In this document: positions 8,794 to 20,190 of the stretch, piece by piece
Numbering within the stretch: position 1 is the first letter of the stretch
Layout: each line of letters begins with the position of its first letter
Virus record (IMG/VR): IMGVR_UViG_3300038441_000456
Coordinates: 1 to 22,240 of that record
DNA length: 22,240 nt
Strand: one strand, 5' to 3'
Source of the DNA: a virus
Translations under genes and position numbers: made by a program
Notes under the pieces: model-generated
Seen by the model: the letters and a program-made list of their open reading frames with translations, nothing else
Database searches by the model: none
Told to the model about the DNA's origin: nothing

Positions 8794-11156
8794 TGGAAAA
8801 CGAACTGCTCATTGCTGCCATCGACGCAGCAGAGCAAAGCTCATACAGCTCCGAAGGCGACAGCACACTCTCGACCGATCGCGCCTATGCGATCGACATG
8901 TACAACGGCAAGAACCTCGAGCCAGCACCGGAAGGGCGCTCGCAGGTCGTCGACCGTTCCGTGTTCGAGACAGTGCAATGGATTCTGCCCTCGCTCGTGG
9001 ACATCTACGCGAACGGCGATGACGTCGTCGAGATTGATCCCGTCAGCGAAGAGGATGAGCCGGTCGCGAAGCAGGAGGGTCAGTACCTCAATCACGTTAT
9101 CCTGAAGAAGAACCCGACCGCATGGCTCGTGACGTTCATCACGTGGGCCATGGATGCGCTGCTCACGAAGAACGGCTATTGCCTGGCGTACAGCGAGAAG
9201 CGCCGCAACGAAGAGATTGACCACTACGAGCGGCAGACCGAGCAGGGCGTTGCTCTGCTGATGCAGGACAAGGATGTGCAGGTTCAGGTGACCGGCCAAT
9301 ATCCCGACCCTGACTACGTTCCGCAGCCGCAACCCGTCGTAGATCCAGCCACTGGGCAACCGGCCATCGATCCGGCCACGGGTCAGCCTGTCATGCAGGT
9401 TCCGCCGCCTCCGATGCTGTACGACGTGACGGTCACGCGAGTGCAGGAGGAGCGGAAGGTCTGCTACAAAGCCCTTCCTCCCGAGCGCTGCAAGATCAGC
9501 TATCACACGCCTGACTTCAGCATCGGGCCTGACTGCCCGTACTTCGAGTACTACGACTACAAGACGCTGTCAGATCTTCGTGCCGATGGATTCGATCTGC
9601 CTGATGTCCTCCCTGACGATTGGCAGATCGACGAGGAAGAAGATCTAGCTCGCGACCAGTACGACGAGCAGGGCTGGCGCACGGAGAACAACGAGCCTGA
9701 CGAGAGCCAGAAGCGCTATCGCGTGCGCATGATCTGGCTCAACTTCGACGACAACGAAGACGGTATTGCCGAGCGGCTGTATGTGGTACGCATCGGCCGG
9801 CACGTCCTGCACAAAGAGCAGGTGAGTCGTATTCCGGTTGCGTCTCTCGTCGCAATTCCAAATGCACACCGGCACATCGCGACGTCCATCGCGGACATCG
9901 TGATGGATCTCCAGCGCATCAAGACCGCGATCCTCCGCGGTGGCCTGGACAATCTGTACCTGTCGAACAACGTTCAGAAGGCGATCGACACAAACCGGGT
10001 GAACTTGGACGACGCGCTGATCTCACGCCCCGGTGGTGTGTTGCGAGTGGACGGCGATCCCACCACGGCCGTCTTCCCGGTTGTGACACCGTTCGTGTTC
10101 CCGCAAGCAATGGAAGGCTTGGAATACATGGACCAGGTGCGAGAGAACCGCACGGGCACGAATCGATACTTCACCGGCATCGACCAGAACGCCATGAACA
10201 AGACGGCCACGGGCATTCAGCAGTTGTCGTCTATGGCCGCTCAGCGCGTGAAGCTTATCGCTCGCATCATGGGCGTGGGCATCGCCGATCTGTTCTCGAT
10301 CATCCACGAGCTCATCATCAAGGGCGGCCACAAGAAGGACGTGGTCAAGCTCAACAATACGTGGGTGGAGATCGATCCGGCCCAGTGGAAGAAGCGCACG
10401 GACTTCCGGCTCAGCGTGGGCTACGCATCGACCAACAAAGATGCGCTGGTTCAGAAGCTCATGCTGATCGCGAACATGCAGAAGGAAGCGCTGATGGGCG
10501 GATTGCCCATCGTGACGCCGCAGAACGTGTTCGAGACGGCGATGGAGCTGACGAAGGCCTCAGATTTCTCTGCGCCCCAACGCTTCTGGACAAGCCCGGA
10601 CAAGATCCCGCCGAAAGATCCGCCGCCTGATCCGATGATCGAATCGGAGAAGATCAAGTCGCAGACGACGCTGCAGAAGACTCAGGCCGAGCTTCAGGCC
10701 GAGGCTGAGCAGAAAGAGCGCGACCGGATGTTGGAGAAGTACAAGACCGACACCGATGCGCAGGTGAAACTGACGTTGGCAGAAGCGCAGATCGAGAGCG
10801 CGCATACGCTCGAAGACAAGCGTTCCAAGACCGAGGACAAGAAGCTAGACGTTCAAGTGCACGGCATGCGCCTGAAGTCCAACGCCGATCGCGTGAAGGG
10901 CATGGGGCCTGAGAAAGTCGACGAGCTCGAGCAGGTCTCCTCCGAGCTTGTGCAGCAGGCTCAGGCGGTCAGCAACGTACTCACCGACATCATGTCGCAG
11001 CTCAAGCAGGTCACGTCTTTGCTGTCCGCCAAGAAGCGCGTGGTGAAGAAGGGCGGCAAGGCTGCAGCGATTGAACTCCTGGGCGAGGACGGCTCTGTCA
11101 TCGGCTCGCAGCAGATCGTGCGCGGTCAGGATGGGTCGATTGAGGGCACTGCTTGA
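8793..11156 (+). CDS. Portal protein (SU10/phiEco32-like)
   Basis: A 787-residue portal, the dodecameric ring at one capsid vertex through which DNA enters and leaves. The N-terminus ERSQVVDRSVFETVQW-like segment (GRSQVVDRSVFETVQWILPS, 49-68) and the central ASLVAIPNAHRHIATSIADI / VMDLQRIKTAILRGGLDNLY region are hallmarks of the SU10-type portal family found in podoviruses with large portals. Residues 410-480 give the stem/crown transition, with the QNAMNKTATGIQQ motif. The C-terminal 180 residues are a charged coiled coil (TTLQKTQAELQAEAEQKERD), as expected for the inner barrel. A Pro-rich insert at 184-201 contains a 9-residue tandem duplication. It lies between terminase and scaffold, the canonical position, and its stop overlaps a TTG start. 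Confidence 0.9.
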   Translation: MENELLIAAIDAAEQSSYSSEGDSTLSTDRAYAIDMYNGKNLEPAPEGRSQVVDRSVFETVQWILPSLVDIYANGDDVVEIDPVSEEDEPVAKQEGQYLNHVILKKNPTAWLVTFITWAMDALLTKNGYCLAYSEKRRNEEIDHYERQTEQGVALLMQDKDVQVQVTGQYPDPDYVPQPQPVVDPATGQPAIDPATGQPVMQVPPPPMLYDVTVTRVQEERKVCYKALPPERCKISYHTPDFSIGPDCPYFEYYDYKTLSDLRADGFDLPDVLPDDWQIDEEEDLARDQYDEQGWRTENNEPDESQKRYRVRMIWLNFDDNEDGIAERLYVVRIGRHVLHKEQVSRIPVASLVAIPNAHRHIATSIADIVMDLQRIKTAILRGGLDNLYLSNNVQKAIDTNRVNLDDALISRPGGVLRVDGDPTTAVFPVVTPFVFPQAMEGLEYMDQVRENRTGTNRYFTGIDQNAMNKTATGIQQLSSMAAQRVKLIARIMGVGIADLFSIIHELIIKGGHKKDVVKLNNTWVEIDPAQWKKRTDFRLSVGYASTNKDALVQKLMLIANMQKEALMGGLPIVTPQNVFETAMELTKASDFSAPQRFWTSPDKIPPKDPPPDPMIESEKIKSQTTLQKTQAELQAEAEQKERDRMLEKYKTDTDAQVKLTLAEAQIESAHTLEDKRSKTEDKKLDVQVHGMRLKSNADRVKGMGPEKVDELEQVSSELVQQAQAVSNVLTDIMSQLKQVTSLLSAKKRVVKKGGKAAAIELLGEDGSVIGSQQIVRGQDGSIEGTA
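9342..9395. repeat. 27-bp tandem duplication inside the portal gene
   Basis: Two consecutive 27-base units (9342-9368 and 9369-9395) encode DPATGQPAI and DPATGQPVM. Together they make a short Pro/Gly-rich insertion, in frame, within the portal. The units differ mainly at third codon positions, so the duplication is not very recent. Confidence 0.8.
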
Positions 11157-11443
11157 ACGCCATCGAACGCGCTCAGAAGGCCGAGCGCATCCTGAACGAC
11201 GAAATCTTCAAGGAAGCATTCGAGAGCGTGCGCCAAGCGCTACTCAACAAGTTCGAGACTGCGCCCGTGAATGACGCCGAGGGCATGGCGAAGATCCGCC
11301 TGTGCTTGAAGCTGCTTAGCGACGTGAAGGCGAATCTCGTCAGCGTCCTGAACGACGGCAAGGTTGCCGAGTTTGAGATGCAGGAGAAGAAGCGAGTTGC
11401 AAACCTCGCTGACTACAACTCCAACCCAAGATTTCGCAGGTAA
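11153..11443 (+). CDS. Small helical protein between portal and scaffold
   Basis: A 96-residue predicted all-helical protein without a recognised family. The TTG start overlaps the portal stop as TTGA and is preceded by GAGG, 9-12 bases upstream. The first residues, NAIERAQKAERILNDEIFKEAFESV, fit the pattern of short phage proteins that follow the portal in SU10/T7-type clusters. The second helix (DAEGMAKIRLCLKLLSDVKA) has a single Cys. It is followed by tandem hairpins and a terminator, so it is the last gene of the packaging-portal segment. A head-assembly role is inferred from position only. Confidence 0.62.
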   Translation: MNAIERAQKAERILNDEIFKEAFESVRQALLNKFETAPVNDAEGMAKIRLCLKLLSDVKANLVSVLNDGKVAEFEMQEKKRVANLADYNSNPRFRR

Positions 11444-11454
11444 GCAAGAGTCTA

Positions 11455-11472
11455 GGGGCTTCAATGTGCCCC
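11455..11472 (+). promoter_or_regulatory. Hairpin just before the scaffold terminator
   Basis: GGGGC (11455-11459) and GCCCC (11468-11472) flank an 8-base loop. Because both GCCCCG (11468-11473) and GCCCCGC (11483-11489) occur, and GCGGGG follows at 11496, this hairpin and the next one can pair in mutually exclusive ways, as in attenuators. Only the pairing is visible; regulation is inferred. Confidence 0.35.
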
Positions 11473-11483
11473 GTTTGTCAACG

Positions 11484-11507
11484 CCCCGCCTTAGTGCGGG
11501 GTTTTTC
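11484..11507 (+). terminator. Intrinsic terminator before scaffold gene
   Basis: A 6-bp all-GC stem, CCCCGC (11484-11489) and GCGGGG (11496-11501), closes the loop CTTAGT and runs into TTTTTCATTT. It lies between the 96-residue protein gene and the scaffold gene. No convincing promoter follows it, so scaffold and capsid probably depend on readthrough or antitermination. Confidence 0.78.
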
Positions 11508-11524
11508 ATTTATAAGGTGGACAC

Positions 11525-12412
11525 ATGAGCGAACAACCGGAAACGGAATCGCTGTCGATGGAAGATCGCATCCTCGCGCAGTTCGATGAACAGCCCGAAG
11601 TTGAGGCGCCAATGGAAGAACAGCAGCCGACCGAAGAGGCGGCTCCTGAATCCGAGGCCCAACCGGAATTCGTGGACGTTGAGTTCGAGGGTAAGGCGTA
11701 TCAAGTTCCGCCTGAGCTCAAGGACGCCATCCTTCGCCAGTCTGACTACACCAAGAAGACTACGGAGGTATCGGAGCGGCAACGGGCGCTCGAGCAGAAG
11801 GAACTGCAGATTAAGGCCGCCGAGACTGAGAAAGCCTTTCGCGACTCCGTGAAGGACGACATCCGAGCGATTGACCGGCTCGACTATCAAATCGAGCAGT
11901 TCAAGGCCGTCGATGTCACCGGCATGAGCGCGGAGGAGCTGTGGAAGCTTTCTCGTCACATCGAGAAGCTGAACAGCGATAAGGCTCAGCTCACAAACGG
12001 CCTCAATCAGAAGTGGCACGGCTTCCAACAGCAGCAACAGCAGTTGCTAGCGGAAGCGAAAGCCAAGGCCGAGGAGCACGTCTCCAAGGCAATCAAAGGC
12101 TGGGGTCCGGAATCGAAGGCGGCGATTCGCAACTTCGCTTCCAGTCAGGGCTTCACGCAAGCCGAGATCGACTCGATCGGCGATCCGCGCGTGATCAACA
12201 CGCTCTGGAAGGCTGCTCAGTTCGACAAGCTCCAGTCCCAATCAATCCAGGGCAAGGTCAAGACGGTTCCCACTGTGAAGCCGGGTTCCAGCAACCCGAT
12301 GCCGCAGGCCGTGAAAGACGACCTCGCCTTCCGTAAGGCAATGAACAAACCAGGTCAGACGTCGGCTCAGAAAGCAAAGCTTATCGAGCAGCGGCTGATG
12401 TCCAGGTTCTAA
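11525..12412 (+). CDS. Scaffolding protein
   Basis: A 295-residue, highly acidic-then-charged protein with the signature of a phage scaffold: an acidic disordered N-terminus (to about 50), a short FVDVEFEGKAYQVPPELKDA element at about 49-68 as found at the start of SU10/T7-type scaffolds, long coiled-coil helices (about 85-190, with a QQQQQ run at 169-173), and a basic C-terminal helix ending QRLMSRF, the usual capsid-binding tail. It would direct capsid assembly and leave the shell before packaging. The start has an AAGGTGG Shine-Dalgarno (11514-11520) four bases upstream. Its position directly before the major capsid gene is canonical. The end overlaps the capsid ribosome-binding site. Confidence 0.85.
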   Translation: MSEQPETESLSMEDRILAQFDEQPEVEAPMEEQQPTEEAAPESEAQPEFVDVEFEGKAYQVPPELKDAILRQSDYTKKTTEVSERQRALEQKELQIKAAETEKAFRDSVKDDIRAIDRLDYQIEQFKAVDVTGMSAEELWKLSRHIEKLNSDKAQLTNGLNQKWHGFQQQQQQLLAEAKAKAEEHVSKAIKGWGPESKAAIRNFASSQGFTQAEIDSIGDPRVINTLWKAAQFDKLQSQSIQGKVKTVPTVKPGSSNPMPQAVKDDLAFRKAMNKPGQTSAQKAKLIEQRLMSRF

Positions 12413-12421
12413 GGAGCAATC

Positions 12422-13426
12422 ATGGCTGTTATTTCAGGCACGACGTCGGTTCACGGCGTCGGCACCGCTGGCGGTATCCGCGAGGATCTCAGCGACGTCA
12501 TTTTCGATCTCTTCCCCGAAGACACGTGGGCTGTGACGAACCTCGATCGCGAGGACGCAGAGAGCACGTACACCGAGTGGCTGGCCCAGGAGCTGGCAAC
12601 GCCTTCGAACACGAACATCCGAATCGAAGGCGATGAAGCCTCGTATGCGTCTCTCTCGGCGCCGGCTCGGTATGCGTCGTACTTGCAGATCAGCTCGAAA
12701 GACTTCCTCGTGTCCGACACGTTGGAAGCAGTGAAGAAGGGTGGACGCAAGTCCGAGCTCGCGCGCGGCGCGATGGTGAAGATGCGCGAGTTCAAGCGCG
12801 ATATGGAAACCCGTATCACGCAGAACGGCATCAGCACGATCGGCGGTGCTGGTACGGGCCGCTCGACGGCTGGCATGGAGAGCTGGATCGGAGATGCAAC
12901 GGCTTCGTCCGCCGAGGCTTCGCACGTTGTTCTGTCGACGACGACCGCATCGGCAACCACGCCCGCGCTCACCTCAGGCGTTGCGGGCACGGCACCTACG
13001 GACGGCACGACGACGGGTCCGCTCACGTCGCAAGACCTGAACTACGCGCTCGAGGCTGCGTGGGCAGACGGCGGTGATGCGCGCGTCATCCTGACGAACA
13101 CGATCGGCAAGGCGTACATCGATTCCTTTACGGGTGTCGCGACGCGCTTCGTCGACGTCGATAAGAGCGCGCAAGCCTCGATCATCGGCGCCGCAAACGT
13201 GTACGTCTCGGACTTCGGCAAGCATCAGGTCATCCTCCACCGCTACATGCGGTCGAGTGTCGTCCTGTGCTTGGACCCGGATTACTGGGCAGTGCGCTAC
13301 CTGCGTAAACCGCAGAAACGCAAGCTCGCTAAGACCGGCGACGCCGAGAAGCAGCAGATCATCGGCGAGTGGGCGCTGGTGGCTCGTAACTGGAAGGCGA
13401 ATAGCAAGGTCGTTGCAATCGCCTAA
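12422..13426 (+). CDS. Major capsid protein (SU10-type / DUF5309-like)
   Basis: A 334-residue major capsid protein of HK97 fold. The opening GTTSVHGVGTAGGIREDLSD and the stretch around DTWAVTNLDREDAESTYTEW (34-53) are characteristic of the SU10-like capsid family; DTLEAVKKGGRKSELARGAM (98-117) corresponds to the spine helix, and the C-terminal YWAVRYLRKPQKRKLAKTGD (288-307) to the P-domain ending. An AAGGAG Shine-Dalgarno (12411-12416) lies 5 bases before the ATG, the strongest in the window, consistent with the highest expressed virion protein. A Thr/Ala/Gly-rich segment near 170-200 probably forms a surface loop, a plausible glycosylation or decoration site. It follows scaffold and precedes a terminator. 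Confidence 0.92.
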   Translation: MAVISGTTSVHGVGTAGGIREDLSDVIFDLFPEDTWAVTNLDREDAESTYTEWLAQELATPSNTNIRIEGDEASYASLSAPARYASYLQISSKDFLVSDTLEAVKKGGRKSELARGAMVKMREFKRDMETRITQNGISTIGGAGTGRSTAGMESWIGDATASSAEASHVVLSTTTASATTPALTSGVAGTAPTDGTTTGPLTSQDLNYALEAAWADGGDARVILTNTIGKAYIDSFTGVATRFVDVDKSAQASIIGAANVYVSDFGKHQVILHRYMRSSVVLCLDPDYWAVRYLRKPQKRKLAKTGDAEKQQIIGEWALVARNWKANSKVVAIA

Positions 13427-13434
13427 CGACAGGA

Positions 13435-13460
13435 GGGGGCTGGGCAACTAGCCCCCTTTC
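13435..13460 (+). terminator. Terminator after the major capsid gene
   Basis: A 7-bp stem, GGGGGCT (13435-13441) and AGCCCCC (13450-13456), with an 8-base loop runs into TTTCTC. It follows the capsid stop by 8 bases. The T tract is short, so it probably reduces, rather than blocks, transcription of downstream genes and helps set capsid stoichiometry. Confidence 0.68.
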
Positions 13461-13463
13461 TCA

Positions 13464-13835
13464 ATGCCAGAATTCTTTGAATACGATCCGCTCACTGGGA
13501 TCAGAACCGACTTCGACTACGAAGAAGAAACGGGCAACGTCATCCTGCAACGTTCTCAGGATGTTTCTGCACTGCTCGACCACAACCGAGCCCTCGCGAA
13601 TTCCGGCGCGACAGACAAGGGCATCAAGGAATCGTGGTGGCTGTACGCGAAGATCCCGCCGATCTTCATGCTGAAGATGCGTGCGAAGGGCATCAACGTT
13701 GAGGACGGCCGACACATCGACCGTGTCGTTGCCGAGATCAACACCAACTATCCCGCGCTCAAGTGCACCCAGAAGAACGAAGGCAAGAAGCTGACACTCA
13801 TTCATGACCTCGGCAAATCGCGAAACGGTCGCTAG
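13464..13835 (+). CDS. Conserved small virion-operon protein
   Basis: A 123-residue protein of unknown biochemical role. The sequence EYDPLTGIRTDFDYEEETGN (6-25), then ILQRSQDVSALLDHNRALAN (27-46) and SWWLYAKIPPIFMLKMRAKG (57-76), is a pattern I recognise from short conserved proteins placed directly after capsid genes in several phages. No nuclease or binding motif is evident. The ATG comes 4 bases after the T tract of the capsid terminator and has no convincing Shine-Dalgarno. Its last 32 bases overlap the glycosyltransferase gene, so the two were joined closely at some time. A head-completion or capsid-associated role is inferred. Confidence 0.7.
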   Translation: MPEFFEYDPLTGIRTDFDYEEETGNVILQRSQDVSALLDHNRALANSGATDKGIKESWWLYAKIPPIFMLKMRAKGINVEDGRHIDRVVAEINTNYPALKCTQKNEGKKLTLIHDLGKSRNGR

Positions 13836-15171
13836 GTGCGTTGCGCTCTGGGAGCGCGGCGAGTTGGATCAGTCGATGGATCTCCTGAAGAAGGAGATGA
13901 CCGACTACCCGGACGACCCGGTGTGTATCGCCATGGCGGCCCATATCTTCGAGAAGGCCGGCAACATCCCCGTTGCTTATAACCTGTTCAAGCTAGCGAA
14001 GGATCTCGCACCCAGCGAGGGAGCGAACTGGCTCAACTTCGGACGAACGGCTGAAGACCTCTGGAAAGAGTCAGAGGCAGAGCGTGCATACACGCGCGCT
14101 CTTTCAGTCACCAATCGCCAGAGCACGAAGGTCATGTGCTACGGCAATCTCGCGGCCATGCATATCGATCATGGTCGATACGACAAGGCGCGCGAGTGCA
14201 TCGAGAAGGCGTTACGACTTGATCCGACCAGCAAAACGGTTGTTTCCAACCTGGGTTTCTGCCAACTCGCGGAGGGTAATTGGGCGGAAGGTTGGAAGAA
14301 CTATCACCAGAACATCGGTACCGAATGGCGCAAGCGTGTGCAGTTCGGTGACGAGCCCGAATGGGATGGAACACCAGGACAAGCCGTTGTCCTCTACGGC
14401 GAGCAGGGACTAGGCGACGAGATCTGTTTCGCCTCGATGATCGATGACGCGGCGAAGACGTGCCGCAAGCTCATCGTGGAATGCGATCACCGACTCGAGA
14501 CTCTGTACAAGCGCTCGTTCCCTCAAGCGACGATCTACGGAACGCGCCACGCCAAGAAGGGACAGGCGAGGTGGCACAAGGACGATTGGGCGATCGACGC
14601 ATCGCTCCCGATCGGTCAGGCCGCGGAGTTCTTGCGTACCGATCCAAAGGACTGCCCGCAAGAGCCGTATCTATTCGCCGATCCAGATCGCGTCGCGATG
14701 TGGAAGGCTCTGTGGAAGTCAAAAGGGAAGCCTGCGATCGGCATCGCGTGGTCAGGTGGCATCCCGAAGACCGGCGAGAAGTTTCGATACGCGGGGCTTG
14801 AGGCATTCGCCAGCCTGCTCGAGCTCGACGCGCACTTCGTGTCACTGCAGTACAAGGGCAACGAAAGGCATCCAAAGGTGCACGAGTATCCGTATGCGAC
14901 TCGCACGAACGACTACGACGATACGGCAGCTTTGGTTGCGTCTCTCGATCTGGTCGTCTCTGTGCCTACTGCAGTGGTGCATTTGGCTGGCGCGCTCGGA
15001 ACGAAAGTGATCGCGATGCATGGGCCTTGGGACTGCTGGAAGTACGCCTGTGGACTTCCGTATCACCCGGCCGAGCATGTGACATGGCAAGGGGATTGGA
15101 AGAAGACCGTGGATGCCGCTGCTGAAAAGGTCAAAGAGCGTTTTGCGCTCTGGCTGACGGAGGCTGCGTAA
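13804..15171 (+). CDS. TPR-repeat glycosyltransferase
   Basis: A 455-residue two-domain protein. Residues 5-175 are tetratricopeptide repeats (four clear units: ELDQSMDLLKKEMTDYPDD, IPVAYNLFKLAKDLAPSEG, ESEAERAYTRALSVT, RYDKARECIEKALRLDPTS). Residues 190-450 form a GT-B/glycosyltransferase family 9-like domain: GEQGLGDEI at 199-207, GIAWSGG at 313-319 and SVPTAVVHLAGALG at 386-399, the last two being the donor-binding signature of this family. No membrane segment or signal is seen, so it acts in the cytoplasm, where the TPR part may hold the protein acceptor, as in OGT-like systems. It overlaps the previous gene by 32 bases and touches the next. Activity is likely; donor and acceptor are unknown. 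Confidence 0.8.
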   Translation: MTSANRETVARCVALWERGELDQSMDLLKKEMTDYPDDPVCIAMAAHIFEKAGNIPVAYNLFKLAKDLAPSEGANWLNFGRTAEDLWKESEAERAYTRALSVTNRQSTKVMCYGNLAAMHIDHGRYDKARECIEKALRLDPTSKTVVSNLGFCQLAEGNWAEGWKNYHQNIGTEWRKRVQFGDEPEWDGTPGQAVVLYGEQGLGDEICFASMIDDAAKTCRKLIVECDHRLETLYKRSFPQATIYGTRHAKKGQARWHKDDWAIDASLPIGQAAEFLRTDPKDCPQEPYLFADPDRVAMWKALWKSKGKPAIGIAWSGGIPKTGEKFRYAGLEAFASLLELDAHFVSLQYKGNERHPKVHEYPYATRTNDYDDTAALVASLDLVVSVPTAVVHLAGALGTKVIAMHGPWDCWKYACGLPYHPAEHVTWQGDWKKTVDAAAEKVKERFALWLTEAA

Positions 15172-15806
15172 TGCTGCGCGTCTTCATCGGCCGAGATCCG
15201 CGCCAACCGATCGCCTACAACGTCCTTGCAGACTCGATCGTTCGACACGCGAGCGTTCCTGTCTCGATCACTGCACTAAGCCTGAAGGCGCTCCCAATCA
15301 CGCGCAGAGGACTTACTGAGTTCACATTCTCGCGCTTCCTGGTGCCGTATCTGTGTGGCTACAAAGGCGCCGCGCTGTTCCTGGACGCCGATATGGTCGT
15401 TACAGCGGACATTGCGGAATTGTTCGCTATGGCGAACGGCGTGGACAGCGTGCAGGTGAATCGCAACCAGGCCCGGTTCGAATGGCCGAGTGCAATGCTG
15501 TTCAACTGCGAGCACTGCACGACGCTGACGACGGAATACATCGAAGATCCGCGCAATCAGCTGTTCGACTTCGCGTGGGCCAAGTCTATCGGCGAGTTTT
15601 CTCCCGAATGGAACAAGTGCGTCGGCTACGCGCCGAGCGGTCTCGACGCAAAGCTGTATCACTTCACGAAGGGAATTCCGGTGTGGCGCGAGACACGCGG
15701 CAATGCCGAAGACGCGGTGTACCACGATGCATACAAGCACATGCTGCACACCGTCTCGCACGCCGAGCTGATGGGTAATAGCGTTCACGTGAGGAAGGCG
15801 TCGTGA
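15171..15806 (+). CDS. Glycosyltransferase of GT-A / family 8 type
   Basis: A 211-residue GT-A glycosyltransferase. It opens with RVFIGRDPRQPIAYNVLADS, the nucleotide-sugar-binding start of family 8-like enzymes, and has the metal-binding DxD motif in ALFLDADMVV (DAD at 72-74). Further family features are the FSRFLVPYL helix (54-62) before the DxD strand and, near the C-terminus, the LYHFTKGIPVW segment with a His in the position of the metal-binding histidine. It begins at the A of the upstream TAA, and the next GTG overlaps its end. It is shorter than bacterial family 8 enzymes (usually about 300), typical of phage versions. A retaining transfer to a protein or existing glycan is inferred. 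Confidence 0.82.
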   Translation: MLRVFIGRDPRQPIAYNVLADSIVRHASVPVSITALSLKALPITRRGLTEFTFSRFLVPYLCGYKGAALFLDADMVVTADIAELFAMANGVDSVQVNRNQARFEWPSAMLFNCEHCTTLTTEYIEDPRNQLFDFAWAKSIGEFSPEWNKCVGYAPSGLDAKLYHFTKGIPVWRETRGNAEDAVYHDAYKHMLHTVSHAELMGNSVHVRKAS

Positions 15807-16348
15807 GCGCAGTCCTGATCTCACCAGACTACAAAGCGCAACAAGAAAAACTTCACGAGAACGAGAACTACGGCGTCGCATCCGTTCAGTACGCGCCGAT
15901 CGTCTCTGAAATCTGCAGCAAGCTGGAAGTTCAGCACCTGCTGGACTACGGCGCCGGCAAGTGCCGCTTGTTCCAGACGTTGAAGGTCGATCACAAGATG
16001 AAGCTGCAGGCGTACGACCCTGGTGTCGAGAAGCTGTCGGCACGTCCTGTACCTGCCGAGATGGTCGCGTGTATCGACGTGCTCGAGCACATCGAGCCGG
16101 AGTATCTGGATAACGTGCTAGATGACCTCGCGCACCTTACCGAAGCGGTCGCGTTCCTGACGATCCATACCGGACCAGCGGTGAAGGTGCTTGCTGATGG
16201 TCGCAATGCGCATCTGACGCAACAGCCCATGGAGTGGTGGCTCCCGAAGATCTGGGAGCGATTCGACATTCAGACGGTGCAAGTCACGGGCGAGCACGCC
16301 TTCTACGTGATCGCGTACGCAAAGCCTCACCTGATCGAGACTGAATAA
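15803..16348 (+). CDS. Class I SAM-dependent methyltransferase
   Basis: A 181-residue methyltransferase with the Rossmann motifs in order: motif I LLDYGAGKCRL at 46-56, motif II LQAYDPG at 68-74, and motif IV ACIDVLEHIEP at 89-99. It starts with GTG overlapping the stop of the glycosyltransferase and ends two bases before the HNH gene. The lack of an NPPY or PC motif argues against a DNA base methyltransferase, so a small molecule, sugar or protein acceptor is more likely. With its two glycosyltransferase neighbours it may cap the transferred sugar by O-methylation, a common terminal change on glycans. Enzyme class is clear; substrate is inferred. Confidence 0.82.
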   Translation: MSAVLISPDYKAQQEKLHENENYGVASVQYAPIVSEICSKLEVQHLLDYGAGKCRLFQTLKVDHKMKLQAYDPGVEKLSARPVPAEMVACIDVLEHIEPEYLDNVLDDLAHLTEAVAFLTIHTGPAVKVLADGRNAHLTQQPMEWWLPKIWERFDIQTVQVTGEHAFYVIAYAKPHLIETE

Positions 16349-16350
16349 GC

Positions 16351-16806
16351 ATGGGTATCAGAGAGAGACTGTATCGGCGACTCAGAGCCGAGGGAAACGG
16401 CTGTCTTGAGTGGACAGGAGCTATCAGTTCCTCCGGCTACGGAAACATAAATGTGGACGGGAAGACGTTGAAACCTCATCGGCTTGCATGGTCGATCGAG
16501 AACGGTGAAGTTCCTGAAGATCTATGCGTTCTTCATAAATGCGACAACCCCAAGTGCTGCAATCCCGCTCATTTGTTCCTAGGGACAAAGCTGGATAACT
16601 ACAAGGATATGGAGTCAAAAGGTCGAGATCGAAAGTCACGAGGCCCGCGGCACCATCACTCATTCCTCGATGCAGAAGCCGTGAGGCGCATTCGAGAGGC
16701 ATATCACTTCGGCGCTCGCCAAATTGACTTGGCGGCAGTTCATAACACCGAGCAAACGAACATCAGCGCGATTGTTCGTCGTCGTGCTTGGGCTCACGTG
16801 GAGTAG
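16351..16806 (+). CDS. HNH homing-type endonuclease
   Basis: A 151-residue free-standing endonuclease of HNH_3 type. The N-terminus GCLEWTGAISSSGYGNI (17-33) and the catalytic/zinc region VLHKCDNPKCCNPAHLFLGT (60-79) match mobile phage endonucleases; His62 and His74 are the likely catalytic pair, and Cys64/69/70 the zinc cluster. The C-terminal 45 residues contain an AVRRIREAYHFGARQIDLAA helix-turn-helix for DNA recognition. GC is lower than surroundings (58 of 120 bases G or C in 16441-16560, against 36 of 60 in 16021-16080), which suggests recent arrival. The next gene lies in the same reading frame after the single TAG. Such enzymes spread themselves by cleaving phages that lack them. Confidence 0.88.
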   Translation: MGIRERLYRRLRAEGNGCLEWTGAISSSGYGNINVDGKTLKPHRLAWSIENGEVPEDLCVLHKCDNPKCCNPAHLFLGTKLDNYKDMESKGRDRKSRGPRHHHSFLDAEAVRRIREAYHFGARQIDLAAVHNTEQTNISAIVRRRAWAHVE

Positions 16807-16812
16807 GCCGCC

Positions 16813-17436
16813 ATCGCTGTCATCACGTCCTACTCTACCTTGCTCACGGAGGTGGCGAGCTGGCTTGCGCGCAGCAATCTGACCTCGGCGATTCCAGGTT
16901 TCATCCAGAACTTCGAGGAGCGCTTCTACCGCAACCCGAAGAACTACGGCCAGTGGATGCACTCCGCGTTGAATGTCTCGTTCTCCTCGACTGCCACGGT
17001 TCCAACCGACTTCCTGACGCTTCGTGTCGCGTATCTAAACGGTAAGTCGAATGCACCGCTGCAACAGTCATCTCTTGAGCAAGTGCTATCGAACTATCCG
17101 AGAACCTCGTCTGGTCAGCCGAAAGCCATCGCTCGAGACGGTGCAAACTTCATCTTCGGTCCCGTTCCTGATGGCACGTACACGCTGAACGGCACCTATT
17201 ACGCAAAGCCAGTGCTGCTGCGTTCGTTCTCAAGCGATGCCGCTGCTCACTTCTTGATCGTGAACGCTCCGGATCTCCTGTTGTACGGCGCACTGCTCGA
17301 AGCGCAGGCGTATCTCATGAACGACTCGCGCATTCCTGTGTGGTCTGCGGCGTATGAACTCGCGCTTCGTGAGTATCGCGAGCTCATGAAGGCGCAGAAC
17401 ATCGGCATGGGTTCGTTGCAGACGCTGGCGGTCTGA
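16813..17436 (+). CDS. Head-tail adaptor protein (SU10-type); apparent ATC start
   Basis: The adaptor ring that joins portal and nozzle. The family usually starts with M-A-[I/V]-T-x-Y-x-x-L-x-x-x-[I/V]-x-x-W-L-x-R; here that pattern is IAVITSYSTLLTEVASWLAR, with ATC (16813) exactly where the initial ATG belongs. GGAG (16800-16803) stands 9 bases before it. The first conventional start is TTG at 16840 (198 residues), which has no Shine-Dalgarno and would delete the conserved first nine residues. Later features are IPGFIQNFEERFYRNP (about 28-43), the YYAKPVLL strand, and PDLLLYGALLEAQAYL near the C-terminus. It ends in a TGATG overlap with the nozzle gene. The family assignment is strong; the start is uncertain. 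Confidence 0.75.
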   Translation: MAVITSYSTLLTEVASWLARSNLTSAIPGFIQNFEERFYRNPKNYGQWMHSALNVSFSSTATVPTDFLTLRVAYLNGKSNAPLQQSSLEQVLSNYPRTSSGQPKAIARDGANFIFGPVPDGTYTLNGTYYAKPVLLRSFSSDAAAHFLIVNAPDLLLYGALLEAQAYLMNDSRIPVWSAAYELALREYRELMKAQNIGMGSLQTLAV

Positions 17437-18992
17437 TGGAAACGCTCAAGGCGTTGTTCGGTGAGTGGTTGCCGGATCTTCCGGATCTGGATAACCCAGG
17501 ACTCACGGAAGCGAACAACGTCATCCCATCAGACGGCGGATACAAGCCATTCAGGCCGCTCACAAGCCTGTCAGATCCAGTACCGGCCACAAGCAGCGCA
17601 GGTACGATTACAGGGACGTTCTACCCGCTCGTGGCAATCATGCCGGTCGTAACTGGGACTGATCTAGAAAATGGAACTAATGAGTTCGTGATTGTTAGCG
17701 GGGTAAGCGGAACATTCCGCTACGATCTTTCTTCGCCGACGAGTGCCTTGCCGGCGAGCGCCGTTGAGATGTTTCCCAACACCGCGAGCTTTGATGCTTT
17801 TGCACAGTTCGAAGATCTGATTATTGCGACATCGACAAGGAACTTTACTGCGCGGGCTGCGACGTTGGCGCCCGGCGCAACATTCACCACTCTCGCGACG
17901 TCGGGATCGACGCCCATAGGAGCCGCAGTCGCGGGCGTTGTTGGCCGATTCGTTGTTCTCGGTAATCTGAACAACGGCCCTTCTAATAAGCAGCCATTCA
18001 CTCTGCGCTGGTCGGCTATCAATGAGCCGAGAAATTGGCCGATACCTGGCACATCCACTGCTGCCGCAACACAAGCCGGCGAGCAAGTGATGCCGGCGGA
18101 GCTCGGGCGAATCACCGGAATCTTTGGAACCGATCAGTACGGCATTGTGATGCAAGAGGGCGGTATCAGCCGCATGCAATACGTCGGTGGAAGCGTCGTA
18201 TTCCAGTTCGACAAAATCGAATCGGCGGTCGGTTGTTCGTTCTACAACGGCGCCATCATGGTTGGTGGCGTTGTTTACTTCGCGTCTGTAGCCGGCTTCT
18301 ACAGCACGGACGGCATTAGCGTTGTGCCGATCGGAAATTCCAAGGTCGACAAGCTATTTATCGATGCGTACAACGAGGCTGGGTTCAGCGACGTCGAGTA
18401 CGTAGCTCAATGCGGCTATGACAGGATCAATGACGTCATCTATTGGGGGTTTGCAGATAACGCTCTGTTTGGTGCCGCTCCGCCGCGCCATAACAGGCTC
18501 CTGATGTATCACCGTCCTACAAAGCGCTGGTCACAAGCAAATCAGGATTTCTCGATCCTTGTGACGCCATCCTCTGGTGTTCGTTCGAGGTTGCTTACTG
18601 CCACTGCTGGCGCGTCGACCGATATCGTCGCCGACTTGTACGGCTTCGATACGTCGCGACGGCTCTGTCGATTCGCAGGCACACCAGGTACCGCAACGAT
18701 CACTACCTCGGAACTTGAGACGGTTCCCGGAAAGTATTCGCATGTTAGTGGAGTTAAGCCACTCATCGAGTACTCCGGAACCGCACCAGCGGTGAGTGTG
18801 TCGCTGGGAACGAGAAACGATCAGGGCGAGAGCAGTCTTGCATTCAGCGGCACGACGACAGCGACGACAGACACGGGCTTTGCCGACTTCAGGCAGTCAG
18901 CTCGCTACCACCGTGCAAAGGTTCAGATCACCGGTGCATTCAAGAAGGCGATGGGCATCGAGTTGAAGGTCACACCCGAAGGTGAACGTTGA
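17436..18992 (+). CDS. Tail nozzle / stabilization-type protein
   Basis: A 518-residue, beta-rich protein that follows the adaptor, as the nozzle does in SU10- and T7-type tails. The N-terminus LFGEWLPDLPDLDNPGLTEA (7-26) with NNVIPSDGGYKPFRPL is the signature of a widespread phage family. The rest is repeated blade-like strands (FAQFEDLIIATSTRN; GRFVVLGNLNNGPSN; LRWSAINEPRNW; GGVVYFASVAGFYSTDG), consistent with the beta-propeller ring at the tail tip; the DQYGIVMQEGGISRMQY segment is the usual propeller core. It should close the DNA channel and open on attachment. The ATG overlaps the adaptor stop; the TGA overlaps the next TTG. Confidence 0.82.
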   Translation: METLKALFGEWLPDLPDLDNPGLTEANNVIPSDGGYKPFRPLTSLSDPVPATSSAGTITGTFYPLVAIMPVVTGTDLENGTNEFVIVSGVSGTFRYDLSSPTSALPASAVEMFPNTASFDAFAQFEDLIIATSTRNFTARAATLAPGATFTTLATSGSTPIGAAVAGVVGRFVVLGNLNNGPSNKQPFTLRWSAINEPRNWPIPGTSTAAATQAGEQVMPAELGRITGIFGTDQYGIVMQEGGISRMQYVGGSVVFQFDKIESAVGCSFYNGAIMVGGVVYFASVAGFYSTDGISVVPIGNSKVDKLFIDAYNEAGFSDVEYVAQCGYDRINDVIYWGFADNALFGAAPPRHNRLLMYHRPTKRWSQANQDFSILVTPSSGVRSRLLTATAGASTDIVADLYGFDTSRRLCRFAGTPGTATITTSELETVPGKYSHVSGVKPLIEYSGTAPAVSVSLGTRNDQGESSLAFSGTTTATTDTGFADFRQSARYHRAKVQITGAFKKAMGIELKVTPEGER

Positions 18993-19372
18993 TCTACACG
19001 CTGCAATCTCACGAGATTGCGCAAGCCTGGGATGAGATCGAGCCGTTTCTAAAGTTTGGATGCATCGAGTGGACGCCTGAGTTTGTGAAGGGCGAACTCA
19101 TGGCCGCAAGGGCCGTGATTTGGATTCTCGATCGGCCGATGCGCGGCATCGTCATTACTCAAATTCTCAATACGCCCCACAAGTGGGGGCTTCTCTGGAT
19201 CGCTTCTGGTCGCGGCCTGAAAGAGGGCATCGAGATGCTTTTGCATCACATCGAACCGTGGCTGTGGGCGCAGGGATGCGAATTCATTCAGATCGCAGGT
19301 CGCAAGGGCTGGAAGGTTCTTCCTGGTTACAAGCCGAGGAATGTTGAGATGTTCGTAAAGGTGAAGCCATGA
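18989..19372 (+). CDS. GNAT-like protein in tail cluster
   Basis: A 127-residue protein with the strand-helix order of a minimal GCN5-type acetyltransferase fold: SHEIAQAWDEIEPFLKFG (7-24), the strand AVIWILDRPMRGIVITQI (42-59), WGLLWIASGRGLKEGIEMLL (66-85) in the position of the acetyl-CoA loop, and a C-terminal IAGRKGWKVLPGYK (102-115). The CoA pyrophosphate-loop Q/R-x-x-G-x-G/A is poor, so catalysis is doubtful. The TTG start overlaps the nozzle stop as TTGA. Similar proteins occur in this place in podoviruses; assembly or host-protein modification has been proposed only by analogy. Confidence 0.62.
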   Translation: MIYTLQSHEIAQAWDEIEPFLKFGCIEWTPEFVKGELMAARAVIWILDRPMRGIVITQILNTPHKWGLLWIASGRGLKEGIEMLLHHIEPWLWAQGCEFIQIAGRKGWKVLPGYKPRNVEMFVKVKP

Positions 19373-20190
19373 GTAGCGGCGGCTCGAAGAATCAAACGGT
19401 CACGCAGACGAACAATCCGCCATCGTATTTGCAGCCATACCTGCAACACGCGGCCCAGCAATCGAATGCCCTGTACGCCCAAGGTCCGCAGCAGTACTAC
19501 CCAGGCAACACGGTCGTACCGTTCTCGCAGCAAACACAGCAAGCGATGAACATGACGGAGCAGCGCGCGAAGGCCGGCTCTGATCTGACGAAAGGCGCGC
19601 AGGGCTACGCGCAGGATGTGATTGGCGGAAAGTACCTCAACAGCAATCCTCATCTTGACGCGACGTTCAATCGCGCGGCGGACGCCGTTCAGAACAGGCT
19701 GCAATCGTCCTTCGCTGGAAGCGGTCGGAACATCTCAGCAGCACGTCCGTACGCAGCCCAGGAGTTGAACGACCTCGCCACGAACATCTACGGCGGGAAC
19801 TACCAAGCCGAGCGCGAGCGAATGCAGCAGATGGTGCCGCAGGCTGGCTTCCTCGCTCAGCAGGACTACGCAGACGCCGAGCGACTGGCAGGTGTAGGCG
19901 CCCAGTACGAAGACCTGAATGCGCGCCAGATCGAAGACAGCGTCGCACGGCATGAGTACGCACAGAACGCTCCTGGCATCTCACTCGATCAGTACATCGC
20001 GCGACTGAACAATCAGCCAGGCTCGACGATGAGCACGAGTGCGCCGGTGTATCGCAACTATGCTGCCGGTGGACTAGGCGGCGCGCTGGCGGGGCAGCAG
20101 ATCGGCTCTGGCTTCAGTAACGGCAGCGGCGGGAACTACGGTGGCTGGGGCGCCCTTATCGGCGGATTAGCCGGCTTACTTGGGAGCTAA
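19369..20190 (+). CDS. Ejection/internal virion protein (Gln/Gly-rich)
   Basis: A 273-residue protein. It opens with SSGGSKNQTVTQTNNPPSYL and QPYLQHAAQQSNALYAQG, then has YYPGNTVVPFSQQTQQAMN (42-60), a widespread phage virion-protein signature usually annotated as hypothetical or DNA-ejection protein. The middle is helical (65-200), and the C-terminus is Gly-rich with a GGLGGALAGQQIGSG hydrophobic stretch, typical of proteins that insert in or cross host membranes after ejection. It overlaps the GNAT-like gene (ATGA) and precedes two more probable ejection proteins. No enzyme motif is found. Confidence 0.7.
   Translation: MSSGGSKNQTVTQTNNPPSYLQPYLQHAAQQSNALYAQGPQQYYPGNTVVPFSQQTQQAMNMTEQRAKAGSDLTKGAQGYAQDVIGGKYLNSNPHLDATFNRAADAVQNRLQSSFAGSGRNISAARPYAAQELNDLATNIYGGNYQAERERMQQMVPQAGFLAQQDYADAERLAGVGAQYEDLNARQIEDSVARHEYAQNAPGISLDQYIARLNNQPGSTMSTSAPVYRNYAAGGLGGALAGQQIGSGFSNGSGGNYGGWGALIGGLAGLLGS

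Follow-up and report, generated by a model that had tools for sequence, protein, structure and literature searches.

Three overlapping genes in a phage head operon

What would a phage do with two glycosyltransferases and a methyltransferase encoded in the midst of its head genes? The question is raised by a 22.2-kb fragment of a podovirus-like phage (IMG/VR record IMGVR_UViG_3300038441_000456, positions 1 to 22,240; this whole stretch is referred to as the window), in which the genes run in the order terminase, portal, scaffold, capsid protein, small protein, tetratricopeptide repeat (TPR) glycosyltransferase (TPR-GT), GT8-like glycosyltransferase, methyltransferase (MT), HNH endonuclease, adaptor, and stabilisation-like protein. 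The evidence assembled here makes it likely that the TPR-GT, GT8-like, and MT genes form a dedicated virion-glycosylation module, with the major capsid protein as the likeliest acceptor. An original prediction, made from the sequence of the window, had recognized three overlapping genes at 13804–16348 between the capsid and adaptor genes; its coordinates and overlaps are correct, and the HNH gene at 16351–16806 went unmentioned. The features concerned are as follows, the module first and its neighbours thereafter.

13804–15171, plus strand: TPR-GT, 455 aa, about five TPRs, then a GT-B domain of the GT9 fold (Pfam and AlphaFold 2)
15171–15806, plus strand: GT8-like GT-A glycosyltransferase, 211 aa, with a DxD motif (D72-A-D74) and a C-terminal H164..G168..P170 motif
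15803–16348, plus strand: class I S-adenosylmethionine (SAM)-dependent MT, 181 aa, GTG start, with conserved LDYG, DVxEHxE, and DGRNAH
12422–13426, plus strand: SU10-type major capsid protein (HK97 fold; PF17236, E = 4.7e-71), the proposed acceptor
13464–13835, plus strand: small conserved head-operon protein phrog_3982, function not assigned, between the capsid gene and the module
16351–16806, plus strand: HNH endonuclease (PF13392, E = 7.8e-14), between MT and adaptor
16840–17436, plus strand: SU10-type adaptor (head–tail connector; PF24175, E = 3.6e-23), the downstream border of the slot

The genes are tightly packed: the first 32 nt of the TPR-GT gene are shared with the small head gene before it, the start of the GT8-like gene overlaps the end of the TPR-GT gene in an ATGA, and the MT gene overlaps the GT8-like gene by 4 nt. 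A search for consensus promoters over positions 11400–19400 of the window found none. The ratio of nonsynonymous to synonymous substitution rates is 0.09–0.15 in all three module genes, indicating that they are real and maintained under purifying selection, and is similar in the capsid gene (~0.1).

Enzymes of the module

The TPR-GT comprises TPRs at residues 6–170 (PF07719, E = 7.5e-13, over the Pfam cut-off) and a glycosyltransferase domain at residues ~190–452 that matches GT9 (PF01075, 26.6 bits against a cut-off of 22), and its AlphaFold 2 model (predicted local distance difference test 89.2, predicted template modelling score 0.85) displays ten helices, that is, five TPRs, followed by the GT-B domain. 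The closest solved structures to this domain are the GT9 structure 3tov (Z = 17.1, 251 residues, 3.5 Å), the protein heptosyltransferase TibC (Z = 17.0, 243 residues, 2.8 Å), and WaaF (Z = 16.9, 245 residues, 3.4 Å). Within a QG(L/I)GD motif, Q201, G202, G204, and D205 are invariant in 26–27 sequences, and D205 of this acidic G-x-G-D loop is presumably the equivalent of the heptosyltransferase catalytic Asp. Whole-chain Foldseek searches place SPINDLY and OGT on top (E = 3e-10 to 1e-9), with low TM scores of 0.35–0.46; assignment of the TPR-GT to their family, GT41, was rejected, since the Pfam matches at E ≤ 0.1 include GT9 but none of GT41, and the catalytic domain is GT9-like. In L013 (12936–13147) and about 20 other loci, the TPR-GT reading frame runs ~100–210 nt into the next MT or GT8 gene in a different frame, which would give the enzyme a low-complexity C-terminal tail; the start sites are predicted.

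The second enzyme scores below the cut-off of the GT8 profile PF01501 (20.6 bits against 24.3), and a profile built from 25 GT-A relatives matches the GT8 structure 5gvv (E = 0.0011) and WbbM (E = 0.0009); D72, D74, and M75 of its LFLDADM stretch are invariant in the 25 sequences. The window MT found no family match in the Pfam scan and matches phrog_24759 (‘methyltransferase’, E = 8.5e-21); a relative of it in phage CRP-9 scores above the cut-off of PF13489 (44.3 bits against 27). The enzyme classes originally read from the sequence (a TPR-GT-B enzyme, a GT-A enzyme with DxD, and a SAM methyltransferase) are supported.

Distribution of the module

IMG/VR was scanned with the TPR-GT and with the MT, the best 80 of at least 562 and the best 80 of at least 580 relatives being mapped, as well as with the capsid protein (43 loci). 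The locus set contains 123 unique TPR-GT loci, of which 78 have enough upstream sequence and 55 have 5 kb downstream. Among the matches listed, an SU10-type capsid gene lies within 3 kb upstream of the TPR-GT gene in 77 of the 78 loci, and downstream (n = 55) an adaptor is found in 52, an MT in 50 (91%; a count that misses the MT of L008), and a GT8 in 46 (84%). The best 80 loci from the TPR-GT-led and the MT-led scans again sit in the head operon, and in the capsid-led scan a TPR-GT follows the small protein and precedes the adaptor in every locus of sufficient length, nearly all with MT and GT8 as well. The arrangement is a module and no local accident.

The composition and order of the module vary. 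The orders TPR-GT–MT–GT8 and TPR-GT–GT8–MT are about equally frequent (21 vs 20), TPR-GT and MT stand alone in 7 of the 55 loci, and GT8 is lacking in 9; the absences and the order swaps indicate that the usual core is TPR-GT plus MT, and locus counts, covariation, and trees alike mark the GT8-like gene as the optional and most exchangeable part. An obligatory order of sugar, extension, and methyl cap, as first envisaged, is not borne out by these figures.

The single exception to the SU10-type capsid gene, MW202512, has a PF13252 capsid gene at that place. A scan led by its enzyme listed 80 loci, of which 52 carry PF13252 capsid genes, 19 carry SU10-type ones, and nine, whose contigs start at or near the TPR-GT, have no recognized capsid gene. 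The PF13252 loci (52 contigs, MW202512, and a Thiotrichaceae contig that is itself phage sequence) show the order capsid–TPR-GT–MT–GT8–adaptor, and both capsid lineages have relatives of the adaptor and the stabilisation-like protein alongside the module. The virion-operon position is supported, with the same slot in a second capsid lineage, and the survey once suggested, of whether the genes travel with these head genes or lie scattered beside lipopolysaccharide (LPS) loci, favours the former. In the TPR-GT tree, the phage enzymes form one group separate from the bacterial ones (support 100), the PF13252-linked enzymes are a single clade (support 95), and a single change of capsid type accounts for all 90 phage rows, where ~30 changes would be expected by chance. 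One change is likewise seen on the MT tree and one on the adaptor tree, and four on the GT8 tree, which indicates that the block is old and has for the most part been passed on as a unit, GT8 being the gene exchanged most.

Cultured phages with the same capsid–small protein–adaptor order and no module at that place include phiM5, Venkman, HTVC106P, pCB2047-C, tf, and RHph_N2, in which the small protein phrog_3982 keeps its position; head assembly as such is therefore independent of the module. In MW202711, the slot is occupied by a different glycosyltransferase. Among 50,697 phage records, TPR-GT relatives occur in two, each from an uncultivated phage. Relatives of the MT are found directly after the P22-type coat gene of CRP-9, in a cluster of glyco-genes (including sialyltransferase-annotated ones) after an HK97-type capsid gene of Tetraselmis virus S20, and, located elsewhere, in Caulobacter giant phages and DLP_6.

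The slot holds other genes as well. Further sugar genes comprise a GT29 sialyltransferase-like gene, more glycosyltransferases, an FkbM methyltransferase, and a radical SAM protein. The GT29-like gene (PF00777, at its cut-off) lies between the capsid and small protein genes in L027 (6826–7371) and also in L008, L009, L011, L021, and L045, and a radical SAM/SPASM protein, which could modify a sugar or a peptide, is encoded in L006 (9573–10523; PF04055, PF13186) and L009 (13886–14827). The HNH gene of the window is probably a passenger: it is absent from the same place in L005, L007, and L036, and its relatives occupy differing places within the slot in L001, L099, L128, L148, and L318. In L036 (IMGVR_UViG_3300049060_000012), a close relative of the window, a group I intron (RF00028, 73 bits; 10306–10530) splits the major capsid gene.

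The capsid protein as a candidate acceptor

Covariation was measured as the Spearman correlation of pairwise divergences in 37 loci of the window’s lineage that hold all head genes. The TPR-GT follows the capsid protein most closely (rho = 0.88, bootstrap 0.76–0.93), ahead of portal (0.72), scaffold (0.68), MT (0.57), small protein (0.47), GT8 (0.40), adaptor (0.33), and the stabilisation-like protein (−0.12); the gene for the small protein lies physically between the capsid and TPR-GT genes, and this protein shows no specific covariation with the capsid protein. With portal, scaffold, and small protein controlled for, the partial rho between TPR-GT and capsid is 0.74 (permutation p = 0.002); the values for MT, small protein, and adaptor are 0.14, 0.05, and −0.13, respectively. 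Gene length is no explanation, as the TPR-GT cut to 109 columns still yields a rho of 0.82 with the capsid protein. Such a pattern is what would be expected of a capsid-binding enzyme with two helpers that act on the glycan. The putative acceptor itself is an SU10-type capsid protein, whose AlphaFold 2 model aligns with the Pa223 capsid 9ny2 (Z = 23.3, 264 residues, 3.3 Å).

Several observations weigh against this reading of the module. Repeating the covariation test for the PF13252 lineage gave a mixed outcome: across 44 loci, the TPR-GT has a rho of 0.43 with the capsid protein, compared with 0.50 for the MT, 0.52 for the small post-capsid protein, and 0.50 for the stabilisation-like protein, whereas a subset of 13 loci gives 0.83 with the capsid protein. 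Linked inheritance and shared rates can mimic covariation. The distribution of capsid types on the trees was rejected as proof of capsid specificity, given that the MT and adaptor trees need a single change just as the TPR-GT tree does. The Thr-rich loop of the capsid protein, short as it is, correlates with the TPR-GT at 0.56, compared with 0.89 for the capsid core. Finally, the GT9 and GT8 families include LPS enzymes too.

The last point, along with low-score matches to heptosyltransferase and LPS galactosyltransferase models and the known occurrence of DNA glycosylation in phages, leads to the idea that the enzymes modify host LPS or capsule (serotype conversion) or the phage DNA. We regard this as very improbable: none of the mapped phage TPR-GT or MT loci among the matches listed lies outside the head operon, TPR domains recruit proteins, and no thymidylate synthase/hydroxymethylase-type gene is found in 12 relatives of 37–45 kb.

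The figures from the PF13252 lineage bear on a second alternative, in which the acceptor is another virion protein, such as the small post-capsid protein, the adaptor, the nozzle/stabilisation protein, or a fibre. There, the TPR-GT covaries best with the small post-capsid protein, and the adaptor and stabilisation-like relatives keep company with the module in both lineages; in the window’s lineage, however, the small protein, the adaptor, and the stabilisation-like protein are largely independent of the TPR-GT, and the adaptors diverge widely (26–79% identity) next to well-conserved TPR-GT and MT. This alternative appears unlikely on balance, and for the fibre-like protein, which the original prediction had named as a possible acceptor, no evidence was found. 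Because the TPR-GT/capsid value in the PF13252 lineage is no better than the others, a virion protein in general is held as acceptor with more confidence than the major capsid protein in particular. The former, proposed from the outset, is supported by the head-operon position in two lineages; the latter, to which the covariation in the window’s lineage points, is moderately favoured from these sequence comparisons.

As to the site of modification, the Thr-rich loop had been put forward, and the enrichment is modest: Thr residues number 12.8 (24%) in the loop of module-positive capsids, compared with 7.3 (17%) in 10 module-negative ones. No enrichment is seen in distant module-positive capsids (L117, L156, and L173), the comparison is confounded by descent, and module-negative capsids have the loop as well, so that the case for it as the glycan site is weak. 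A glycine-rich loop is a standard part of SU10 capsids (PMC9509320), and the Thr-rich stretch may be just that. Taken together, the observation from which this analysis started is confirmed, and its interpretation is partly supported, being largely right in direction and over-specific on the loop and the order of steps.

Bacterial relatives and the host-surface alternative

The best bacterial relatives of the TPR-GT are 31–37% identical. In 74 genome loci carrying them, examined with 8-kb flanks, flagellins were detected by homology search and pilins by regular expression, one of 26 pilin matches (L225) being judged spurious and left out. A type IV pilin gene is present in the flanks of 25 loci and a flagellin gene in those of 11, along with GT8 relatives in 25 and MT relatives in 16. 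In 12 of these genomes, 128 prepilin N-terminal matches were counted in ~54 Mb, a density from which ~2–3 of the 74 loci would have a prepilin neighbour by chance. Betaproteobacterial and Methylococcus clusters (L195–L268, e.g., L206, L207, and L196) place several TPR-GTs, together with GT8 and MT, immediately next to the type IV pilin gene; they resemble a pilin glycosylation system, of which no description was found.

Such neighbourhoods, with the whole trio in the pilin loci L206 and L207, are consistent with a borrowed bacterial cassette that keeps its original target and, at a late stage of infection, glycosylates a polymer of the host surface, namely type IV pilin or flagellin. The receptor would thereby be masked, which would keep progeny from being wasted on debris or would prevent superinfection. 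We consider this unlikely, given that two lineages have the module within the head operon, flanked by capsid and adaptor genes, that the phage TPR-GTs stand apart from the pilin- and flagellin-linked ones in the tree, and that the TPR-GT tracks the capsid protein beyond the other virion genes, which a host-pilin target does not predict. What phage and bacterial loci share is a neighbouring gene for a surface subunit that self-assembles. Whether one old TPR-glycosyltransferase family serves such subunits generally (flagellin, type IV pilin, and the capsid proteins of at least two phage lineages), with TPRs re-tuned to the subunit of the adjacent gene and exchangeable GT8, MT, or other enzymes writing the glycan, seems to us evenly balanced.

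Proposed mechanism and significance

If the module glycosylates the virion, the N-terminal TPR superhelix would, in the infected cell, bind one of the head proteins, and the likeliest is the major capsid protein, whose gene lies two genes upstream. A sugar from a host-made nucleotide donor would then be transferred to it by the GT9-fold domain, probably onto Ser/Thr, the GT8-like enzyme may optionally add a further sugar, and the MT would methylate, and so cap, the glycan, leading to a head that shows many copies of a short methylated glycan. Neither a nucleotide diphosphate-sugar epimerase nor a nucleotidyltransferase was found in 13 relatives of 20–45 kb, and the sugar donor is therefore probably the host’s. 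The coat, first suggested to shield the phage or to aid binding, might contribute to environmental stability, surface retention, or protection. Viruses with the module probably coat their own shells with sugar, as bacteria do their flagella and pili.

Few cases of capsid glycosylation in phages are known, and a module defined by sequence predicts head-glycosylating phages among hundreds of uncultured soil and aquatic phages and names the likely acceptor. It yields the concrete hypothesis that the TPR domain binds the neighbouring capsid protein, connects phage capsids, by way of a single enzyme family, with the glycosylation of pilins and flagellins in bacteria, and supplies dozens of natural variants of the TPR–acceptor pair for the study of O-glycosylation specificity. 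No published account of it was found in the literature on TPR, glycosyltransferase, and phage capsid, in a coverage that excludes most subscription papers. Virion glycosylation in phages is known; what would be new is a TPR-recruited, capsid-linked, and widely conserved module.

Comparison with known systems

Among solved structures, TibC and WaaF, the GT9-fold heptosyltransferases, are nearest to the catalytic domain of the TPR-GT, and TibC modifies a protein; they differ in being 11–14% identical to it and in lacking the five-TPR domain. In OGT and SPINDLY, both TPR protein O-glycosyltransferases, a TPR superhelix precedes a GT-B domain as in the TPR-GT. The same architecture, compared by description and not by sequence, is found in FlmG of Caulobacter crescentus, a flagellin O-glycosyltransferase that binds and modifies flagellin via its TPRs (PMC7591256). 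FlmG O-glycosylates a self-assembling surface subunit in the cytoplasm, ahead of its assembly, and some bacterial TPR-GT relatives adjoin flagellin genes; unlike FlmG, the phage TPR-GT is encoded beside a capsid gene, covaries with the capsid protein, and travels with GT8 and MT genes.

In the mycobacteriophages Che8 and Rita, phage-encoded glycosyltransferases glycosylate the major capsid and tail tube proteins (Freeman et al. 2023, as related in parts of PMC11256854 and PMC12619734). Capsid modification by phage-encoded enzymes is what is proposed for the module too, in a different phage group, and the portions of these sources that describe the system mention neither TPR recruitment nor a conserved methyltransferase. 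The chlorovirus PBCV-1 provides a virus-encoded GT–GT–methyltransferase set (A064R/A061L), in which A064R assembles the terminal part of the glycan on the major capsid protein and methylates it (PMC9614988). It differs in that the virus infects eukaryotic algae, the glycan is an N-glycan, the three domains are fused in one protein with no TPR acceptor-binding domain described, and the enzyme families appear different from those of the module. Between them, A064R and the mycobacteriophage capsid glycans provide a precedent for each of the proposed steps.

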